From the NCBI GenBank assembly GCA_030447745.1, contig JAUJOH010000002.1, positions 227,848 through 291,847 on the forward strand: 64,000 nucleotides of DNA. The letters are read 5' to 3'. Made by a program: the position numbers and the translations under genes. Every line of letters starts with the position of its first letter. Position 1 is the first letter of the stretch. Below are positions 417-4,961 of this stretch, piece after piece. The notes beneath the pieces were generated by a model. It was not told the DNA's origin. It did not search any database and worked only from the letters and a program-made list of their open reading frames with translations. The DNA comes from Chloroflexota bacterium. GTDB taxonomy: Bacteria > Chloroflexota > Limnocylindria > Limnocylindrales > CSP1-4.

Positions 417-1220
417 CTACCGGAGCAGCAGCTTGTCGAGCCGCCGTGAGACGATCAGGAGCCCCAGCACACCCATCACCGTGAGGTAGGCGGCGTGCAC
501 AACCGTGCTCGGCCCGACGACCCCCACGGCGAGCGAGCGCACGAGATCGACGCCGTGATAGAGCGGCGTGAGCTGGACGAGCAGCCGGACCGGCTCCGGG
601 TACGCGTCGAGCGGGTAGAACGTGCCGGAGAACAGGAACATCGGCAGGACGACGAGCTGAATCAGGTCGAAGTCCTGCCAGGTCCTCATGAACGACGTGG
701 CAGCCATCCCGACGGCCCCGAACGCGAAGCTGATGAGCAGCGCCGCCGGCAGCGTCAGCAGGAGCCAGGCCGACACGCCGAGCCCGAGGGCGACCATGAC
801 GACCAGGAACCCGCCGGTGTAGAGCGCGCCGCGGATCAGCGCCCAGCCGAGCTCGCCGAGGGCGATGTCGGCGGTCGACAGCGGGGTCGACAGGATCGAC
901 TCGAACGTCTTCTGGTACTTGAGCTTGAAGAAGAAGTTCAGGGTTGCCTCCGTGACCGCGCCGTTCATCGACGAGCTGGCGAGGAGCGCGGGCGCGATGA
1001 AGAGCTGGTACGGGATCTCCGTGCCGCCAGGCCCCGGGACCGTCCCGACGAGCTGTCCGAGCCCGAACCCGATGCTGAGCAGGTAGAAGAGCGGCTCGAA
1101 GAACCCGGACACGATCACGATCCAGCCGTGCCGGTACACGTACAGGTTGCGTTCGATGAGCCGGAACGCGCGAAGGCTCCCGAACATGAGCGGCGGTGCG
1201 ACGCGGAGCGGCAGCGTCAT
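417..1220 (-). CDS. ABC-2 type exporter permease (NodJ-like), second permease
   Basis: This is an integral membrane permease of an ABC-2 exporter, about 267 residues. It has a short cytoplasmic N-terminus, roughly six hydrophobic segments, and the family-typical stretch with PMFLFSGTFYPLDAYP before the last segments. The ATG at 1220 is chosen because it overlaps the TGA stop of the upstream permease as ATGA, showing translational coupling. A longer reading from 1262 would overlap that gene by 46 bases. With the two upstream genes it forms a three-gene exporter. The substrate cannot be read from sequence; NodIJ/daunorubicin-type systems export lipids, glycans or drugs. Confidence 0.88.
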   Translation of the reverse strand: MTLPLRVAPPLMFGSLRAFRLIERNLYVYRHGWIVIVSGFFEPLFYLLSIGFGLGQLVGTVPGPGGTEIPYQLFIAPALLASSSMNGAVTEATLNFFFKLKYQKTFESILSTPLSTADIALGELGWALIRGALYTGGFLVVMVALGLGVSAWLLLTLPAALLISFAFGAVGMAATSFMRTWQDFDLIQLVVLPMFLFSGTFYPLDAYPEPVRLLVQLTPLYHGVDLVRSLAVGVVGPSTVVHAAYLTVMGVLGLLIVSRRLDKLLLR

Positions 1221-1996
1221 CCGCGGATGAGCCGGCGCTCGATCATCCGGACCGTCGCCCACGTCGACACGACGACGATGGCCACCAGGACCACGACATG
1301 GGCGACCATCTGCGCCGGCTGCTGACCGACCGTGCCGAGCACGAGGCCGCGCGTCAGATCGACGCCGTGCCAGAGCGGCGACAGCCAGGCGATCGGTTGG
1401 AGGACGTCCGGCAGCGATTCGATCGGGAAGAACGTTCCGGAGAACAGGAACAGCGGCGTGATGCCGAAGCGGAAGATGACGTTGAACCGGTTCGGCGTTC
1501 GCTGCGTGGCGGAGAAGGCGGTGATCGGGGCCGCGAACGCCATCCCGGTCAGGACGGCGACCGGGATGCCGAGGACGACGAGCGGCGAGTGTGCGGCGCC
1601 GAGCACGATGATCACCGCGCTGAAGACCGAGGCGATCATCGCCATCCGGATCGCCATCCAGACCAGGTTGCCGAGGGCGATGTCGCTCGGTGACAGTGGC
1701 GTGGCGTACATCGCGTGAAACGTCCGCTGCCAGTTGAGCCCGCCGATGATCGGGAACGTCGCCTCGAACGCCGCCGACTGCATGACGGTCGCCGCGAGGA
1801 GGCCGGGGGCGAGGAACTCGAGGTAGCTCAGCCCGCCCAGCACGGCGTCGCCCGAGGCGTCGACATACCCGCCCAGCCCGAGCCCCATGGCGGTGAGAAA
1901 CAGGACGGGGCTCAGGAACGACGTGAAGACCGACGACCGGAACGTCCGGCGGTACTGGACGGCGCGGTGCTCGACGACGCGGCTGAGGCCGGCCAC
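1217..1996 (-). CDS. ABC-2 type exporter permease, first permease
   Basis: This 259-residue membrane protein resembles its downstream partner: an ATPase-coupled permease with about six membrane spans and the shared motif PLFLFSGTFFPIESLP. The start is GTG, two bases after the TAG stop of the ATP-binding gene. Its own stop overlaps the next permease start (ATGA). Two non-identical permeases with one ATPase suggest a heterodimeric channel. Substrate unknown. Confidence 0.88.
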   Translation of the reverse strand: MAGLSRVVEHRAVQYRRTFRSSVFTSFLSPVLFLTAMGLGLGGYVDASGDAVLGGLSYLEFLAPGLLAATVMQSAAFEATFPIIGGLNWQRTFHAMYATPLSPSDIALGNLVWMAIRMAMIASVFSAVIIVLGAAHSPLVVLGIPVAVLTGMAFAAPITAFSATQRTPNRFNVIFRFGITPLFLFSGTFFPIESLPDVLQPIAWLSPLWHGVDLTRGLVLGTVGQQPAQMVAHVVVLVAIVVVSTWATVRMIERRLIRG

Positions 1997-1998
1997 GG

Positions 1999-2937
1999 CT
2001 ACTCGACCAGCGAGCGGCCGGTGAGCCGCAGGAAGACGTCCTCGAGCGTCGAGCGCCGAACGAGGACCGTCTCCGGGTTCAGGCCACGCTCGTGGGCGGC
2101 CACCGCGACGGCCTCGCCGTCGTCCGCGTACAGCAGCACCCGGTCGGCGAGGTGCTCGATCCGATCCGCCAGCCCGTCCAGCTGGCCGTCGAGACGCTCC
2201 TGGACACCGGGCCCGAAGCGGAGCTCGGTGACCTCACGCGTCGAGTAGCGGTCGATCAGCTGGCGCGGAGACCCCTCGGCCACGATCTTGGCCTTGTCCA
2301 TGACGACCAGGCGGTCGCAGAGCTGCTCTGCCTCGTCCATGTAATGCGTGGTCAGCACGAGCGTCACGCCGCGCTGCTTGAGGCGGTACAGGCGGTCCCA
2401 CAGGAGGTGGCGCGCCTGCGGGTCGAGCCCCGTGGTCGGCTCGTCGAGAAGGAGCAGGTCCGGCTGGTTGATCAGCGCCCGAGCGATCGTCAGCCGCCGC
2501 TTCATCCCGCCCGAGAGCGGCTCGACCTCGTCGTTCTGACGTTCCGTCAGCTGCGCGAAGCCCAGGAGCTCGTCCGCGCGACGTCCGCATTCCGCGCGCG
2601 GCAGCCCGAAGTAGCGGCCGTAGAGGACGAGGTTCTCGCGGACCGTCAGCTCCGTGTCCAGCGTGTCCTGTTGCGGGACGACGCCGAGACGAGCCCGGAT
2701 CTCCGGCCCGTCCGTGCGCGGGTCCAGGCCGCGCACCGTCAGCGTGCCGTCGGTCACGGGCGAGACGCAGCCGATCATCCGCATCGTCGAGGTCTTCCCC
2801 GCCCCGTTCGGGCCGAGGAAGCCGAACGCCTCGCCGGGCGCGACGTCGAAATCGACGCCGTCGACGGCGGTGAACGACCCGAATCGCTTCGTCAGGCCGC
2901 GGGCATGGATGAGCGAGGACTCGGGGGAACCGGGCAT
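1999..2937 (-). CDS. ABC exporter ATP-binding protein (NodI/DrrA-like)
   Basis: This 312-residue cytoplasmic ATPase energises the two permeases downstream. Walker A is GPNGAGKTS, the signature is LSGGMKRR, Walker B is LLLLDEPTTGLD, followed by the switch histidine in LTTHYMDEAEQLCDR. The C-terminal extension of about 90 residues, ending in a TLEDVFLRLTGRSL motif, is typical of the multidrug/lipo-oligosaccharide CcmA/NodI branch. It is the first gene of the operon. The intergenic region to the divergent PPOX gene (2938-3093) must hold its promoter, but I cannot assign the boxes. Confidence 0.93.
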   Translation of the reverse strand: MPGSPESSLIHARGLTKRFGSFTAVDGVDFDVAPGEAFGFLGPNGAGKTSTMRMIGCVSPVTDGTLTVRGLDPRTDGPEIRARLGVVPQQDTLDTELTVRENLVLYGRYFGLPRAECGRRADELLGFAQLTERQNDEVEPLSGGMKRRLTIARALINQPDLLLLDEPTTGLDPQARHLLWDRLYRLKQRGVTLVLTTHYMDEAEQLCDRLVVMDKAKIVAEGSPRQLIDRYSTREVTELRFGPGVQERLDGQLDGLADRIEHLADRVLLYADDGEAVAVAAHERGLNPETVLVRRSTLEDVFLRLTGRSLVE

Positions 2938-3093: not shown

Positions 3094-3573
3094 ATGGCCA
3101 AGCTACCCGAACCGGTCGAGCGCCTGCTCGACGCCGCGCTCGTCGGCGAGCTGACCGTCGTCAGCCCGTCCGGGCGACCGATCACGTACCCGCTCATCCC
3201 GCTGTTCGACGGCGACAAGGTCTACCTCACGTCGTCGACCCTGTTCAGCCGGAAGCTCGAGCACATCGCGGCCAATCCGCGGGTGGCCCTGTCGATCACC
3301 GACCCCGTCGCGACCGGTCGCCCGGACCGGGCAACCCTCCAGGGCGACGCCCGCGTCATCGACGAGGACCCGCACGGCGGCTGGGAGCGGCTGCTCCCGA
3401 TCTGGGAGAAGAAGGAGCCGTCCATCGTCACATTCCTCAAGGCCCGCGTGGCGCTGCCGCTATTCTTCGAGCGGGCGCTGATCGAGATCACGCCGCGACG
3501 CGTGCTGTACTGGTCGGACGGAGCGTCCGCCGCGGCACCGGTCACGACGCTCGTCGGGACGGAGGCCGCCTGA
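3094..3573 (+). CDS. pyridoxamine-5'-phosphate-oxidase-fold flavin/F420-type protein
   Basis: This 159-residue split-barrel protein is of the PPOX-like superfamily, which binds FMN, F420 or heme. The N-terminal strands TVVSPSGRPITYPLIPLFDGDKVYLTS and the ANPRVALSITDP helix-strand match the family pattern. The ATG at 3094 follows a GGAG ribosome site. Its stop shares one base with the start of the next gene (TGATG), so the two are translationally coupled. The next gene itself carries a second PPOX-like domain, which suggests a joint role. The chemistry is not deducible. Confidence 0.8.
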   Translation: MAKLPEPVERLLDAALVGELTVVSPSGRPITYPLIPLFDGDKVYLTSSTLFSRKLEHIAANPRVALSITDPVATGRPDRATLQGDARVIDEDPHGGWERLLPIWEKKEPSIVTFLKARVALPLFFERALIEITPRRVLYWSDGASAAAPVTTLVGTEAA

Positions 3574-4961
3574 TGCGCAGCACCACGGAGCTCGACGCCC
3601 GCGCCGGCCTGGAGAGGCTCCGGACGTATCCCTTCCAGGTCCTGACCTGGGTCGGCCCGGACGGCTACCCCGTCAGCGTGGCGGTCGAGGCGGCCGTCGA
3701 TCCGGCCACCGGCTCGGCGCGCTTCGCCGCGCCGACGGGACTCGCCGTCCCGACGGACCGCGAGGTCTCGCTCACCGGCTCCCACATCCGCCCGCAGCCT
3801 GGATACGGCTACGACGAGCGCCGCCACGTGACCGTGTGGGGCCGAGTGGCGGCCGCGGACGGCACCCTCACGCTCGCCGCCGACCACGCCTGGGGCTGGG
3901 ACGAGGCAGAGGTTCCGTTTTTCGAGTACAGCGAGCGCTCCCTGCCGCAGTCACGCAAGTACTTCGACGCGCTCTCCCGGGAGCGCGGGACTCCCGTCCG
4001 GCCGAAGCTCTCCTTCGGGTTCCTGACGCTGCGCGCGACAAGGCTGCCGTTCCTGACCGCGACGATCGTGCCGGTGCTGCTGGGCATCCTGATCGCCGCC
4101 AGCGACGGCGCGTTCGACCTCCTGACGGCCGTCCTTACCGTGGTCGGCGCGTCGTTCGTCCAGCTGGCGATCAACGTCAGCAACGACGTCTTCGACACCG
4201 CCCAGGGAGCAGACGACGCGAACGTCACGCCCACCCAGTTCAGCGGCGGGTCGCGCGTCATCCAGTACGGCCTGGTGACCTTCCGCCAGATGGCCACGCT
4301 GGCCACGGTGTTCTTCGTGGCAGCCGCGGCCGTGGGGCTCGTGCTGCTGGCGCTTCGGGGGTCGCCGGCGCTGCTCGCCATCGGCATCGTCGGGTTCGTG
4401 GTCGGGCTCGGCTACACGGCGCCGCCGCTGAAGCTCGTGTATCGCGGGCTCGGCGAGATCGCCGTGGCGGTGGGGTTCGGACCGCTGATGCTGCTTGGCG
4501 CCTACGTCGTGCAGACAGGTGGCTCGCTGTCGTGGGAGCCCTTCGTGGCCTCGATCCCGATCGCCGTCCTCATCGCGCTCGTCCTGTACGTCAACGAGAT
4601 CCCCGACCGGCGCGGTGACGCGCGTGCCGGCAAGCGGACGCTCCCGGTCCGCTTCTCGCGCGAGGCGGTCGTGACCGGCTACCGCGTCGCGACGATCGCG
4701 GCGTACGGGGCGCTCGTGCTCGGCGTCGTCGCCGGGCTGCTGCCGATCCCGGCGCTGCTGATGCTCCTGACCGTGCCGCTCGCCCTCCGGGTGGAGCGCG
4801 GCCTGCGCCCAAACTACGACAACCCGTACGGATTGATGTCGGTGATGGGCGTCAACATCCGGCTCCACCTGTACGCCGGCCTGCTCCTCGTGGCGGCGTA
4901 CGCGCTGGTCCTCGTCGCCGAGGCGGTCGCGCCCGGCGTACCCCTGTTCCTCGGCCGCTGA
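3573..4961 (+). CDS. fusion of PPOX-like domain and UbiA/MenA-type prenyltransferase
   Basis: Residues 1 to about 130 form a PPOX/split-barrel-like domain (LRTYPFQVLTWVGPDGYPVS). Residues about 150-462 are a UbiA-superfamily membrane prenyltransferase with eight or nine helices. The two prenyl-diphosphate/Mg motifs are visible: NVSNDVFDTAQGAD at 201-214 and NEIPDRRGDARAGKRTL at 341-357. The latter is close to MenA (1,4-dihydroxy-2-naphthoate prenyltransferase) enzymes. The protein is 462 residues against about 300 for a stand-alone UbiA. The substrate is unknown; a menaquinone-like or other prenylated aromatic is the simplest guess. The start overlaps the upstream PPOX stop. Confidence 0.85.
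   Translation: MRSTTELDARAGLERLRTYPFQVLTWVGPDGYPVSVAVEAAVDPATGSARFAAPTGLAVPTDREVSLTGSHIRPQPGYGYDERRHVTVWGRVAAADGTLTLAADHAWGWDEAEVPFFEYSERSLPQSRKYFDALSRERGTPVRPKLSFGFLTLRATRLPFLTATIVPVLLGILIAASDGAFDLLTAVLTVVGASFVQLAINVSNDVFDTAQGADDANVTPTQFSGGSRVIQYGLVTFRQMATLATVFFVAAAAVGLVLLALRGSPALLAIGIVGFVVGLGYTAPPLKLVYRGLGEIAVAVGFGPLMLLGAYVVQTGGSLSWEPFVASIPIAVLIALVLYVNEIPDRRGDARAGKRTLPVRFSREAVVTGYRVATIAAYGALVLGVVAGLLPIPALLMLLTVPLALRVERGLRPNYDNPYGLMSVMGVNIRLHLYAGLLLVAAYALVLVAEAVAPGVPLFLGR

Follow-up and report, generated by a model that had tools for sequence, protein, structure and literature searches.

A conserved gene pair links a flavin-type split-barrel protein to a predicted split-barrel–UbiA prenyltransferase fusion in Chloroflexota

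Two adjacent genes in a 64,000-nucleotide stretch of a Chloroflexota genome (the window) encode a flavin-type split-barrel protein of the PPOX family, here called PPOX1, and a fusion protein in which a membrane prenyltransferase domain of the UbiA family follows a predicted, divergent split barrel. The same architecture and the same directly upstream PPOX gene recur in all 25 loci with upstream DNA, the window included; the pair is beyond chance, and it is old. We tentatively propose, at somewhat under an even chance, that the flavin module reduces a quinone-type ring and the UbiA domain prenylates it, which would supply a respiratory quinone without the Men or futalosine routes.

Results

Organization and conservation of the gene pair

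The window lies within contig 23 of a genome assembly of 2.43 Mb that is 77% complete. The features that concern us are these:

417..1262, minus strand: ABC-2 permease B (ABC2_membrane, 71 bits)
1217..1996, minus strand: ABC-2 permease A (ABC2_membrane, 65 bits)
1999..2937, minus strand: ABC transporter ATPase, divergent neighbour of the pair (ABC_tran, 108 bits)
3094..3573, plus strand: PPOX1, a 159-aa FMN-type split-barrel (PPOX) protein, partner of the fusion (open reading frame; Pfam PNPOx_N)
3562..3575, plus strand: GGAGG ribosome-binding-like site (3562-3566) and TGATG stop-start overlap (3571-3575), from the sequence
3573..4961, plus strand: split-barrel–UbiA fusion, 462 aa (open reading frame; Pfam UbiA)
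3597..3911, plus strand: predicted divergent split-barrel domain at the N-terminus of the fusion, residues about 9-113 (AlphaFold, Foldseek, alignment)
4017..4910, plus strand: UbiA prenyltransferase domain, residues about 149-446, with NDxxD and NEIPDxxxDxxxGKRTL motifs (PF01040, 115.4 bits)

Both reading frames and the one-base overlap that an earlier note on this DNA had described are confirmed: a single A is common to the TGA of PPOX1 (3571-3573) and the ATG of the fusion (3573-3575).

The fusion is known from 26 genomes, made up of the 25 counted loci and one further locus (L010) that stands outside the pair count, its contig beginning just before the fusion with no upstream DNA; nine repeats of counted genomes (L011-L014, L080-L082, L085 and L086) are likewise outside the count. 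At 22 of the 25 loci the PPOX stop and the start codon of the fusion overlap, by 1 base or by 4; the exceptions are L093 and L094, where the ATG lies 2 bases further on, and L015, where no start was called. The part of the L089 fusion that can be recognised starts 302 bases past the PPOX stop. The nine relatives found by name are all Chloroflexi or Chloroflexota MAGs, CSP1-4 among them. Across a phylum sample, a match running from model position 14 or earlier into UbiA was found in at least 18 of 400 genomes, with the matches listed ending near E 7e-36 and two of the 18 (G155, G159) incomplete; these matches span at least five family-level groups (f1, f4, f19, f69 and f78). That the two genes are co-translated across so wide a range of genomes suggests that their products are made in a fixed ratio, and we infer that PPOX1 and the fusion bind each other. 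The earlier argument that fusion plus coupling speaks for one pathway is supported by how consistently the pair and its overlapping stop and start codons are kept.

PPOX1 is a split-barrel protein of the PPOX family

By both Pfam and fold, PPOX1 belongs to the PPOX split-barrel family, which bears out its first description as a flavin-type split barrel. It matches PNPOx_N with 39.3 bits (E 9.9e-10, cut-off 28.1), a profile search of the PDB finds 3f7e at E 1.8e-6, and its AlphaFold model (pLDDT 81.5) matches 2i02 in Foldseek at E 2.7e-9. This Foldseek search returned 151 matches at E ≤0.001, and among the matches listed the named ones are split-barrel proteins. The RK...NP-type stretch of the PPOX family has a role in FMN binding; alignment shows it mostly kept in PPOX1, which is predicted to bind FMN.

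PPOX1 resembles the PPOX/flavin-deazaflavin oxidoreductase B proteins (Rv1155, MSMEG_3380) by Pfam, profile and fold, but unlike them it is the constant partner of a UbiA fusion, in hosts of which eight of nine tested have no CofH. These observations bear on the idea that the reduction coupled to prenylation depends on F420. PPOX1 has its closest matches in F420-dependent subfamilies and in 3f7e; however, its nearest NCBIfam model, TIGR03618 (Rv1155_F420), scores 42.2 bits against a cut-off of 79, and its scores fall below the F420 subfamily cut-offs. Of 61 genomes, 5 have CofH, which is needed for F420; of the nine fusion genomes among them one has it (G024), and it was not found in the window's own genome. 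Because it is missing from the other eight, F420 is unlikely as the carrier and FMN likely; with CofH missing from 56 of the 61 genomes we rejected an F420-dependent pair as a general reading and hold it to be highly improbable. The available part of a review of F420 (PMC8498797) contains no mention of UbiA or prenyl that we could find.

A divergent split barrel is predicted at the front of the fusion

The claim of a second, divergent split barrel in the fusion stands on the side of fold and fails on the side of sequence. Residues 1-156 alone matched no Pfam family at E 1, and an hhalign profile comparison with PPOX1 gave a probability of 0.4%, detecting no relation; attempted proof by sequence that the front domain is a PPOX domain therefore failed, and what supports it is the comparison of folds. 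The AlphaFold model of the fusion, built from ten aligned fusions, is modest overall (pLDDT 60). In it, residues about 9-113 form a helix and seven strands, with 10-residue mean pLDDT of 49-88 up to residue 110, and the order of elements is much like that in the PPOX1 model minus the PPOX1 helix at 52-60. Foldseek matched this domain to Rv2074, a biliverdin reductase with F420 (5jab; E 0.03, probability 1.00), and to the further split-barrel structures 3db0, 2fhq, 2i02, 2hq7 and 4n7r; for a model of moderate confidence, folded within the whole fusion, these matches have probabilities of 0.98-1.00 and E-values from 0.03 to 0.3. When the whole fusion model was searched, UbiA proteins came first, followed by split barrels interspersed with polyprenyl synthases, whose matches are to the UbiA part; in a second search of solved structures, the matches listed cover almost the UbiA part alone. 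The earlier note would have given up its reading had the N-terminal domain failed structural comparison to the PPOX fold; split-barrel structures were matched, with weak E-values. We conclude that the front domain is probably a divergent split barrel, as the modelled fold indicates.

Much of the stretch SHIRPxPGxGYDERR, and of WGWDExExPF at and just behind the end of the domain, is nearly invariant across 21 sequences, which implies that the domain is under selection. Around the first of these stretches the model is unsure (pLDDT 49 at residues 71-80). Because the front domain has no detected sequence relation to PPOX1 and its model is missing the helix corresponding to 52-60, it may bind no flavin.

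The UbiA domain lies outside the clade of men-operon MenAs

The Pfam UbiA match covers residues 165-408 of the fusion. Residues of the Asp-rich motifs are invariant in 10 aligned fusions, the alignment on which the first motif (NDxxD) rests, and the second motif reads NExPD in all 25 fusion rows of the tree set. At the second motif, NNxRD was found in 9 of 11 men-operon rows, the other two lying outside the search pattern, and in E. coli MenA. The nearest NCBIfam models are those of MenA (NF004751, TIGR02235, TIGR00751), with scores of 144.6 of 264, 136.2 of 225 and 85.0 of 102.2 bits; the fusion keeps both Asp-rich motifs of a UbiA enzyme and falls below every equivalog cut-off.

We placed 65 UbiA domains in a quick tree with SH-aLRT supports only, in which the E. 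coli rows are long branches and from which incomplete sequences (L096, L035), a repeat of L020 (L103) and the same nine repeats as in the pair count were excluded. All 25 fusions form one clade (support 99), within a larger clade (99) that also holds fusions of a PAS domain to UbiA (PAS-UbiA), fusions of a recognisable PPOX domain to UbiA and stand-alone proteins. The men-operon MenAs and E. coli MenA (12 rows) form a separate clade (99), and fusions of a luciferase-like (LLM) domain to UbiA a third (97). Among tree rows, the sequence SGGSR or TGGSR was found only in the fusion's clade, whose second motif is N-E/Q-x-P/Q-D. A standard menA clade containing the same fusion would have undone the earlier reading; the sampled men-operon MenA clade contains none. 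The description of the prenyltransferase as MenA-like is apt in so far as MenA is the nearest named family, but the domain scores below the MenA cut-offs and sits outside the men-operon MenA clade.

The closest solved structure to the fusion's UbiA domain is UBIAD1, the animal menadione prenyltransferase (8djk; Z 22.2, rmsd 3.5, 261 aligned, next Z 17.1), a weak sense of closest, as few UbiA structures and no MenA structure are among the matches; by profile the match to UBIAD1 has E 1e-11. The two share the UbiA fold, and the reaction of UBIAD1 needs a reductant (PMC4398444). They differ in the second motif, NNTRD in UBIAD1 and NEIPD in the fusion, and the aligned UBIAD1 chain has no fused split barrel.

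Known quinone routes in genomes with the fusion

MenD over cut-off was found in none of 22 fusion genomes (nine within a 61-genome set and 13 more) versus 16 of 61 relatives. All 16 relatives' MenD proteins score at least 397 bits; most genomes have weaker matches, which fall well short of the cut-off. MenB exceeds its cut-off in 5 of 23 genomes and in none of the nine fusion genomes tested. MqnA/MqnD (PF02621) is absent from all 22 fusion genomes; by genome set it occurs in 0 of 23 and 1 of 25, the latter a weak match in a genome with the recognisable PPOX-UbiA (G172). These absences were judged on genome-wide searches for MenD, MenB and MqnA/MqnD. The futalosine prenyltransferase MqnP was rejected as an identity for the fusion, its hosts having no MqnA/MqnD.

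The methyltransferase MenG/UbiE is over cut-off in 29 of 48 genomes and in 11 of 22 fusion genomes, the window's own included; the other 11 fusion genomes, among them the 99%-complete G059, have none over cut-off. In L125 and L126 MenG is about 64% identical to men-operon MenG, and in six other fusion genomes 41-50%.

These results bear on the possibility that the fusion works as a MenA that carries an accessory domain, in which case divergent or unrecognised enzymes would make dihydroxynaphthoate in the cell and the split-barrel pair would be incidental or protective. That MenA models are the best named matches (144.6 and 136.2 bits) agrees with it, as do the MenG proteins of L125 and L126 and an orphan MenB-like gene in G006 that scores 331 of 342.7 bits, just below cut-off. 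Against this, no MenA score reaches its cut-off, the second motifs of the fusions and the men-operon rows differ, the quick tree separates the two, and MenD, so clean in 16 relatives, is over cut-off in no fusion genome. We consider a functional MenA of this kind unlikely, and on cut-offs, tree and MenD together we rejected a standard MenA. The check for menaquinone genes that the earlier note called for thus speaks against a MenA reading.

As for respiration itself, haem-copper oxidase subunit I is present in five of six fusion genomes sampled, near CtaB in G059, G006, G024 and G016, and in G251 at a distance of about 5 kb from MenG; the stretch sampled from the window's genome has CtaB alone, near a contig end. 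No NADH dehydrogenase I genes were found in 1.79 Mb (with repeats) comprising small parts of genomes, a search in which the E. coli positive control worked. For Thermoflexus, the available text of PMC8129789 reports an NADH:quinone oxidoreductase and a cytochrome c oxidase, a report not tied to fusion genomes. Quinone data were not found in the accessible literature on Limnocylindria or CSP1-4, the word 'quinone' being absent from what is available of the main text of PMC13212565 and PMC10608941.

Related UbiA fusions carry other N-terminal domains

Several other Chloroflexota proteins likewise join a MenA-like UbiA domain to an N-terminal flavin-type or sensor domain, but the N-terminal domains are different and the UbiA domain of one type, LLM-UbiA, forms its separate clade. 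LLM-UbiA (Bac_luciferase, 147.5 bits, plus UbiA) was found at 12 loci and at one more broken by a contig end. The recognisable PPOX-UbiA occurs in L098, L099 and L100, with best PPOX-family E-values of 2e-6, 6e-9 and 6e-5, the last below cut-off. PAS-UbiA occurs in L019-L021 and L101, and luciferase-type genes lie near it in L021 (seen by eye) and L101 (178 bits). In one genome, G119, an LLM gene, PAS-UbiA and MenG follow one another in this order on one strand, and in G237 a stand-alone member of the fusion's UbiA clade adjoins MenG (152 bits); in these two relatives the clade is thus directly beside MenG. A flavin-type step next to prenylation would fit the separate fusion of LLM and PPOX domains to related UbiA domains. 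In G256 and G360 a MenA-like UbiA domain is joined to a permease of an ABC importer.

Alternatively, the split barrels could do no chemistry and serve instead to gate the prenyltransferase, as regulators or as sensors of haem, flavin or redox state. A PAS domain does occupy the same end of the protein in a sister group, some structural neighbours are haem-binding or binding proteins (4n7r for the front domain; 6m09 and 5bnc for PPOX1), and the front barrel is without the helix seen in PPOX1; however, the luciferase-like domain carried by other relatives belongs to an enzyme family, and the RK...NP-type stretch is mostly kept in PPOX1. A purely sensory role is, in our judgement, improbable.

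Within 37 genomes of the window's family, PPOX-UbiA is present in 8, LLM-UbiA in 10 (in G025 broken before the LLM part) and MenD in 16, and 30 of the 37 have exactly one of the three. PPOX-UbiA and MenD occur together in none (Fisher p 0.005), either flavin-type UbiA and MenD in two (p 0.00014), and for LLM-UbiA alone against MenD p is 0.08, all three values being uncorrected for kinship. The two genomes with both MenD and LLM-UbiA (G011, G032) each have a men operon. By these criteria five genomes have none of the three, G010 among them with an incomplete MenD close to the end of a contig. A genome outside this set, G343, has PPOX-UbiA and LLM-UbiA both. Because G011, G032 and G343 each carry two, the three alternatives are not strict substitutes.

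Genomic neighbourhood

An orthologue of the window's ABC-2 transporter (ATPase 73-89% identical) lies beside nine other fusion loci, so that 10 of the 22 loci with flanks have the transporter. Orthologues also lie beside men operons at 3 of 15 loci (ATPase 78-80%), which may be an undercount as several contigs end soon after the operon, and beside LLM-UbiA at 1 of 13 (83%). More distant ABC ATPases (32-43%) accompany the fusion in L134, L135 and L128, and seven LLM-UbiA loci have one close by. In a few genomes, and on small counts, the alternatives appear to have replaced one another at a single position in the chromosome; the neighbourhoods may instead share their descent. Heat-shock genes (DnaJ, GrpE, HrcA) and further housekeeping genes surround the pair in the window's relatives. 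The maps are provisional, since neighbouring reading frames were picked by GC at codon positions and are sometimes antisense, as over MenG in L136.

The transporter raises the prospect that the product is a prenylated non-respiratory compound, such as a pigment, an antibiotic or a signal, exported by this neighbour. UbiA enzymes outside quinone synthesis exist, and an algal six-gene cluster (PMC5133447) may serve as an example. That cluster reportedly holds a UbiA enzyme. The frequency of the transporter beside fusion loci is in keeping with export, as is the distant ABC ATPase (32-33% identical) beside the pair in L134 and L135, with an ABC-2 permease in L134; but men operons in three genomes have this transporter alongside, two genomes tie the UbiA clade to MenG, and the recurring annotated neighbours are mostly housekeeping genes (besides the heat-shock genes, PrmA, DNA glycosylases and TrkA/TrkH). 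We regard a non-respiratory product as quite unlikely.

Discussion

We return to the reading we tentatively favour, reduction by a flavin module followed by prenylation. PPOX1 and the fusion would form a stoichiometric membrane complex. Split-barrel flavoproteins are commonly dimers, and PPOX1, carrying FMN, would pair with the front split barrel of the UbiA protein in a putative heterodimer. The flavin would reduce a soluble acceptor ring, a naphthoquinone or oxidised dihydroxynaphthoate, to the hydroquinone right beside the UbiA domain, which would join the hydroquinone to a polyprenyl diphosphate; MenG/UbiE, where present, might then methylate the prenylated product, whose presumed role would be in respiration. 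A quinone-like substrate, one of two kinds the earlier note envisaged, is plausible; the other, a flavin-like one, found no support. For the favoured reading speak the conserved pair, the lack of MenD over cut-off and of MqnA/MqnD together with MenG in half of the fusion genomes and oxidases in five, the related UbiA domains that are fused to LLM or PPOX domains or lie beside MenG, the mostly single occurrence of MenD, PPOX-UbiA or LLM-UbiA in the window's family, and the ABC-2 transporter, which in some genomes flanks each of these three. Against it stand the 11 fusion genomes with no MenG over cut-off, the genomes that carry two of the three, the low counts of the transporter beside men operons and LLM-UbiA, the front domain's lack of a sequence relation to PPOX1, and the failure to find NADH dehydrogenase I in the 1.79 Mb searched. 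UBIAD1 made no MK-4 unless the reductant DTT was present, from which its authors conclude that menadione has to be reduced first. This need for prior reduction would be answered by a reductase attached to the prenyltransferase.

Either neighbours or an as yet undescribed pathway could supply the ring. Scavenging fits the missing upstream genes and the proposal of a 2016 study that bacteria with menA and menG only live on their neighbours' precursors, a study that could point to no transporters (PMC4746308); an undescribed route fits as well.

Taken as a set, PPOX1 with PPOX-UbiA, LLM-UbiA, the single-chain PPOX-UbiA and PAS-UbiA with LLM may be considered flavin-module UbiA enzymes. The further idea that in Chloroflexota lacking Men and futalosine genes they represent a third, so far undescribed, path to a respiratory naphthoquinone, or make a new quinone, from a ring that is taken up or made by undescribed enzymes and then reduced and prenylated in one complex, strikes us as possible yet doubtful.

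The earlier note knew of no described enzyme of this design, and we found none among titles and the openings of abstracts, most subscription journals lying outside that scope. One paper among those found treats fusions of IspH to UbiA (PMC4746011). A 2026 survey of 26,264 bacterial genomes states that lineages without a known quinone pathway are mostly Bacillota and Chloroflexota and that other quinones may await discovery (PMC13386864).

The split-barrel–UbiA pair is a candidate for the step by which some Chloroflexota without the key genes of the known menaquinone routes obtain their respiratory quinone. We know of no earlier prenyltransferase candidate for Chloroflexota without MenD and MqnA/D. 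If the proposal is true, how these Chloroflexota respire would become testable with two genes in E. coli.

UbiA fused to flavin-type domains, and possible CtaA-CtaB fusions

A recognisable PPOX domain (the FMN-type split-barrel family) and UbiA occur in a single chain at three loci:
L098, single-chain PPOX-UbiA
L099, single-chain PPOX-UbiA
L100, single-chain PPOX-UbiA
Their UbiA parts fall in the same clade as the UbiA of the window's fusion, and their hosts are Chloroflexota from other families.

UbiA is also fused to a luciferase-like oxidoreductase:
L022-L034 (except L025, which does not belong to this set), L054, L058, L059, L062, L069 and L180, luciferase-like oxidoreductase-UbiA fusions
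At those loci where the ORF was read it spans ~660-730 aa, and the UbiA parts of these fusions form a clade of their own. One neighbour gene is common to four of the loci; its copy at L058 is Rce1-like (CAAX protease family).

Three long ORFs are possible CtaA-CtaB fusions:
L141 8599-10419, long ORF
L142 8871-10751, long ORF
L144 10707-12701, long ORF
In each, the haem O synthase match is confined to the second half, and the first half, examined by eye, is presumably haem-A-synthase-like.

Menaquinone genes and UbiA copy number

The genomes of genus g28 (G037-G055) are ~0.8-1.2 Mb in size and hold 2 to 6 UbiA-family matches each; none of the 19 has a MenD above the cut-off. Genome G006, likewise with no MenD above the cut-off, carries an orphan gene:
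L055 7836-8609, MenB-like protein
This protein is ~50% identical to men-operon MenB and scores slightly below the MenB cut-off.

In stretches from four fusion genomes (L119, L120, L123 and L127), one gene family recurs near MenG; the L119 copy is a prolipoprotein diacylglyceryl transferase (144 bits).

UbiA fused to an importer permease

Domain matches identify two further fusions:
L104 646-2364 (G256), BPD_transp_1 permease-UbiA (MenA-like)
L105 1495-3237 (G360), BPD_transp_1 permease-UbiA (MenA-like)
Judged by eye, the permease part is of the NitT/TauT type. At a separate locus, L106, a MenA-like gene is adjoined by an NMT1-type binding protein. Both fusions combine a match to BPD_transp_1, the ABC importer permease (81-84 bits), with a UbiA match, and we regard them as candidates for a putative importer of a quinone precursor.
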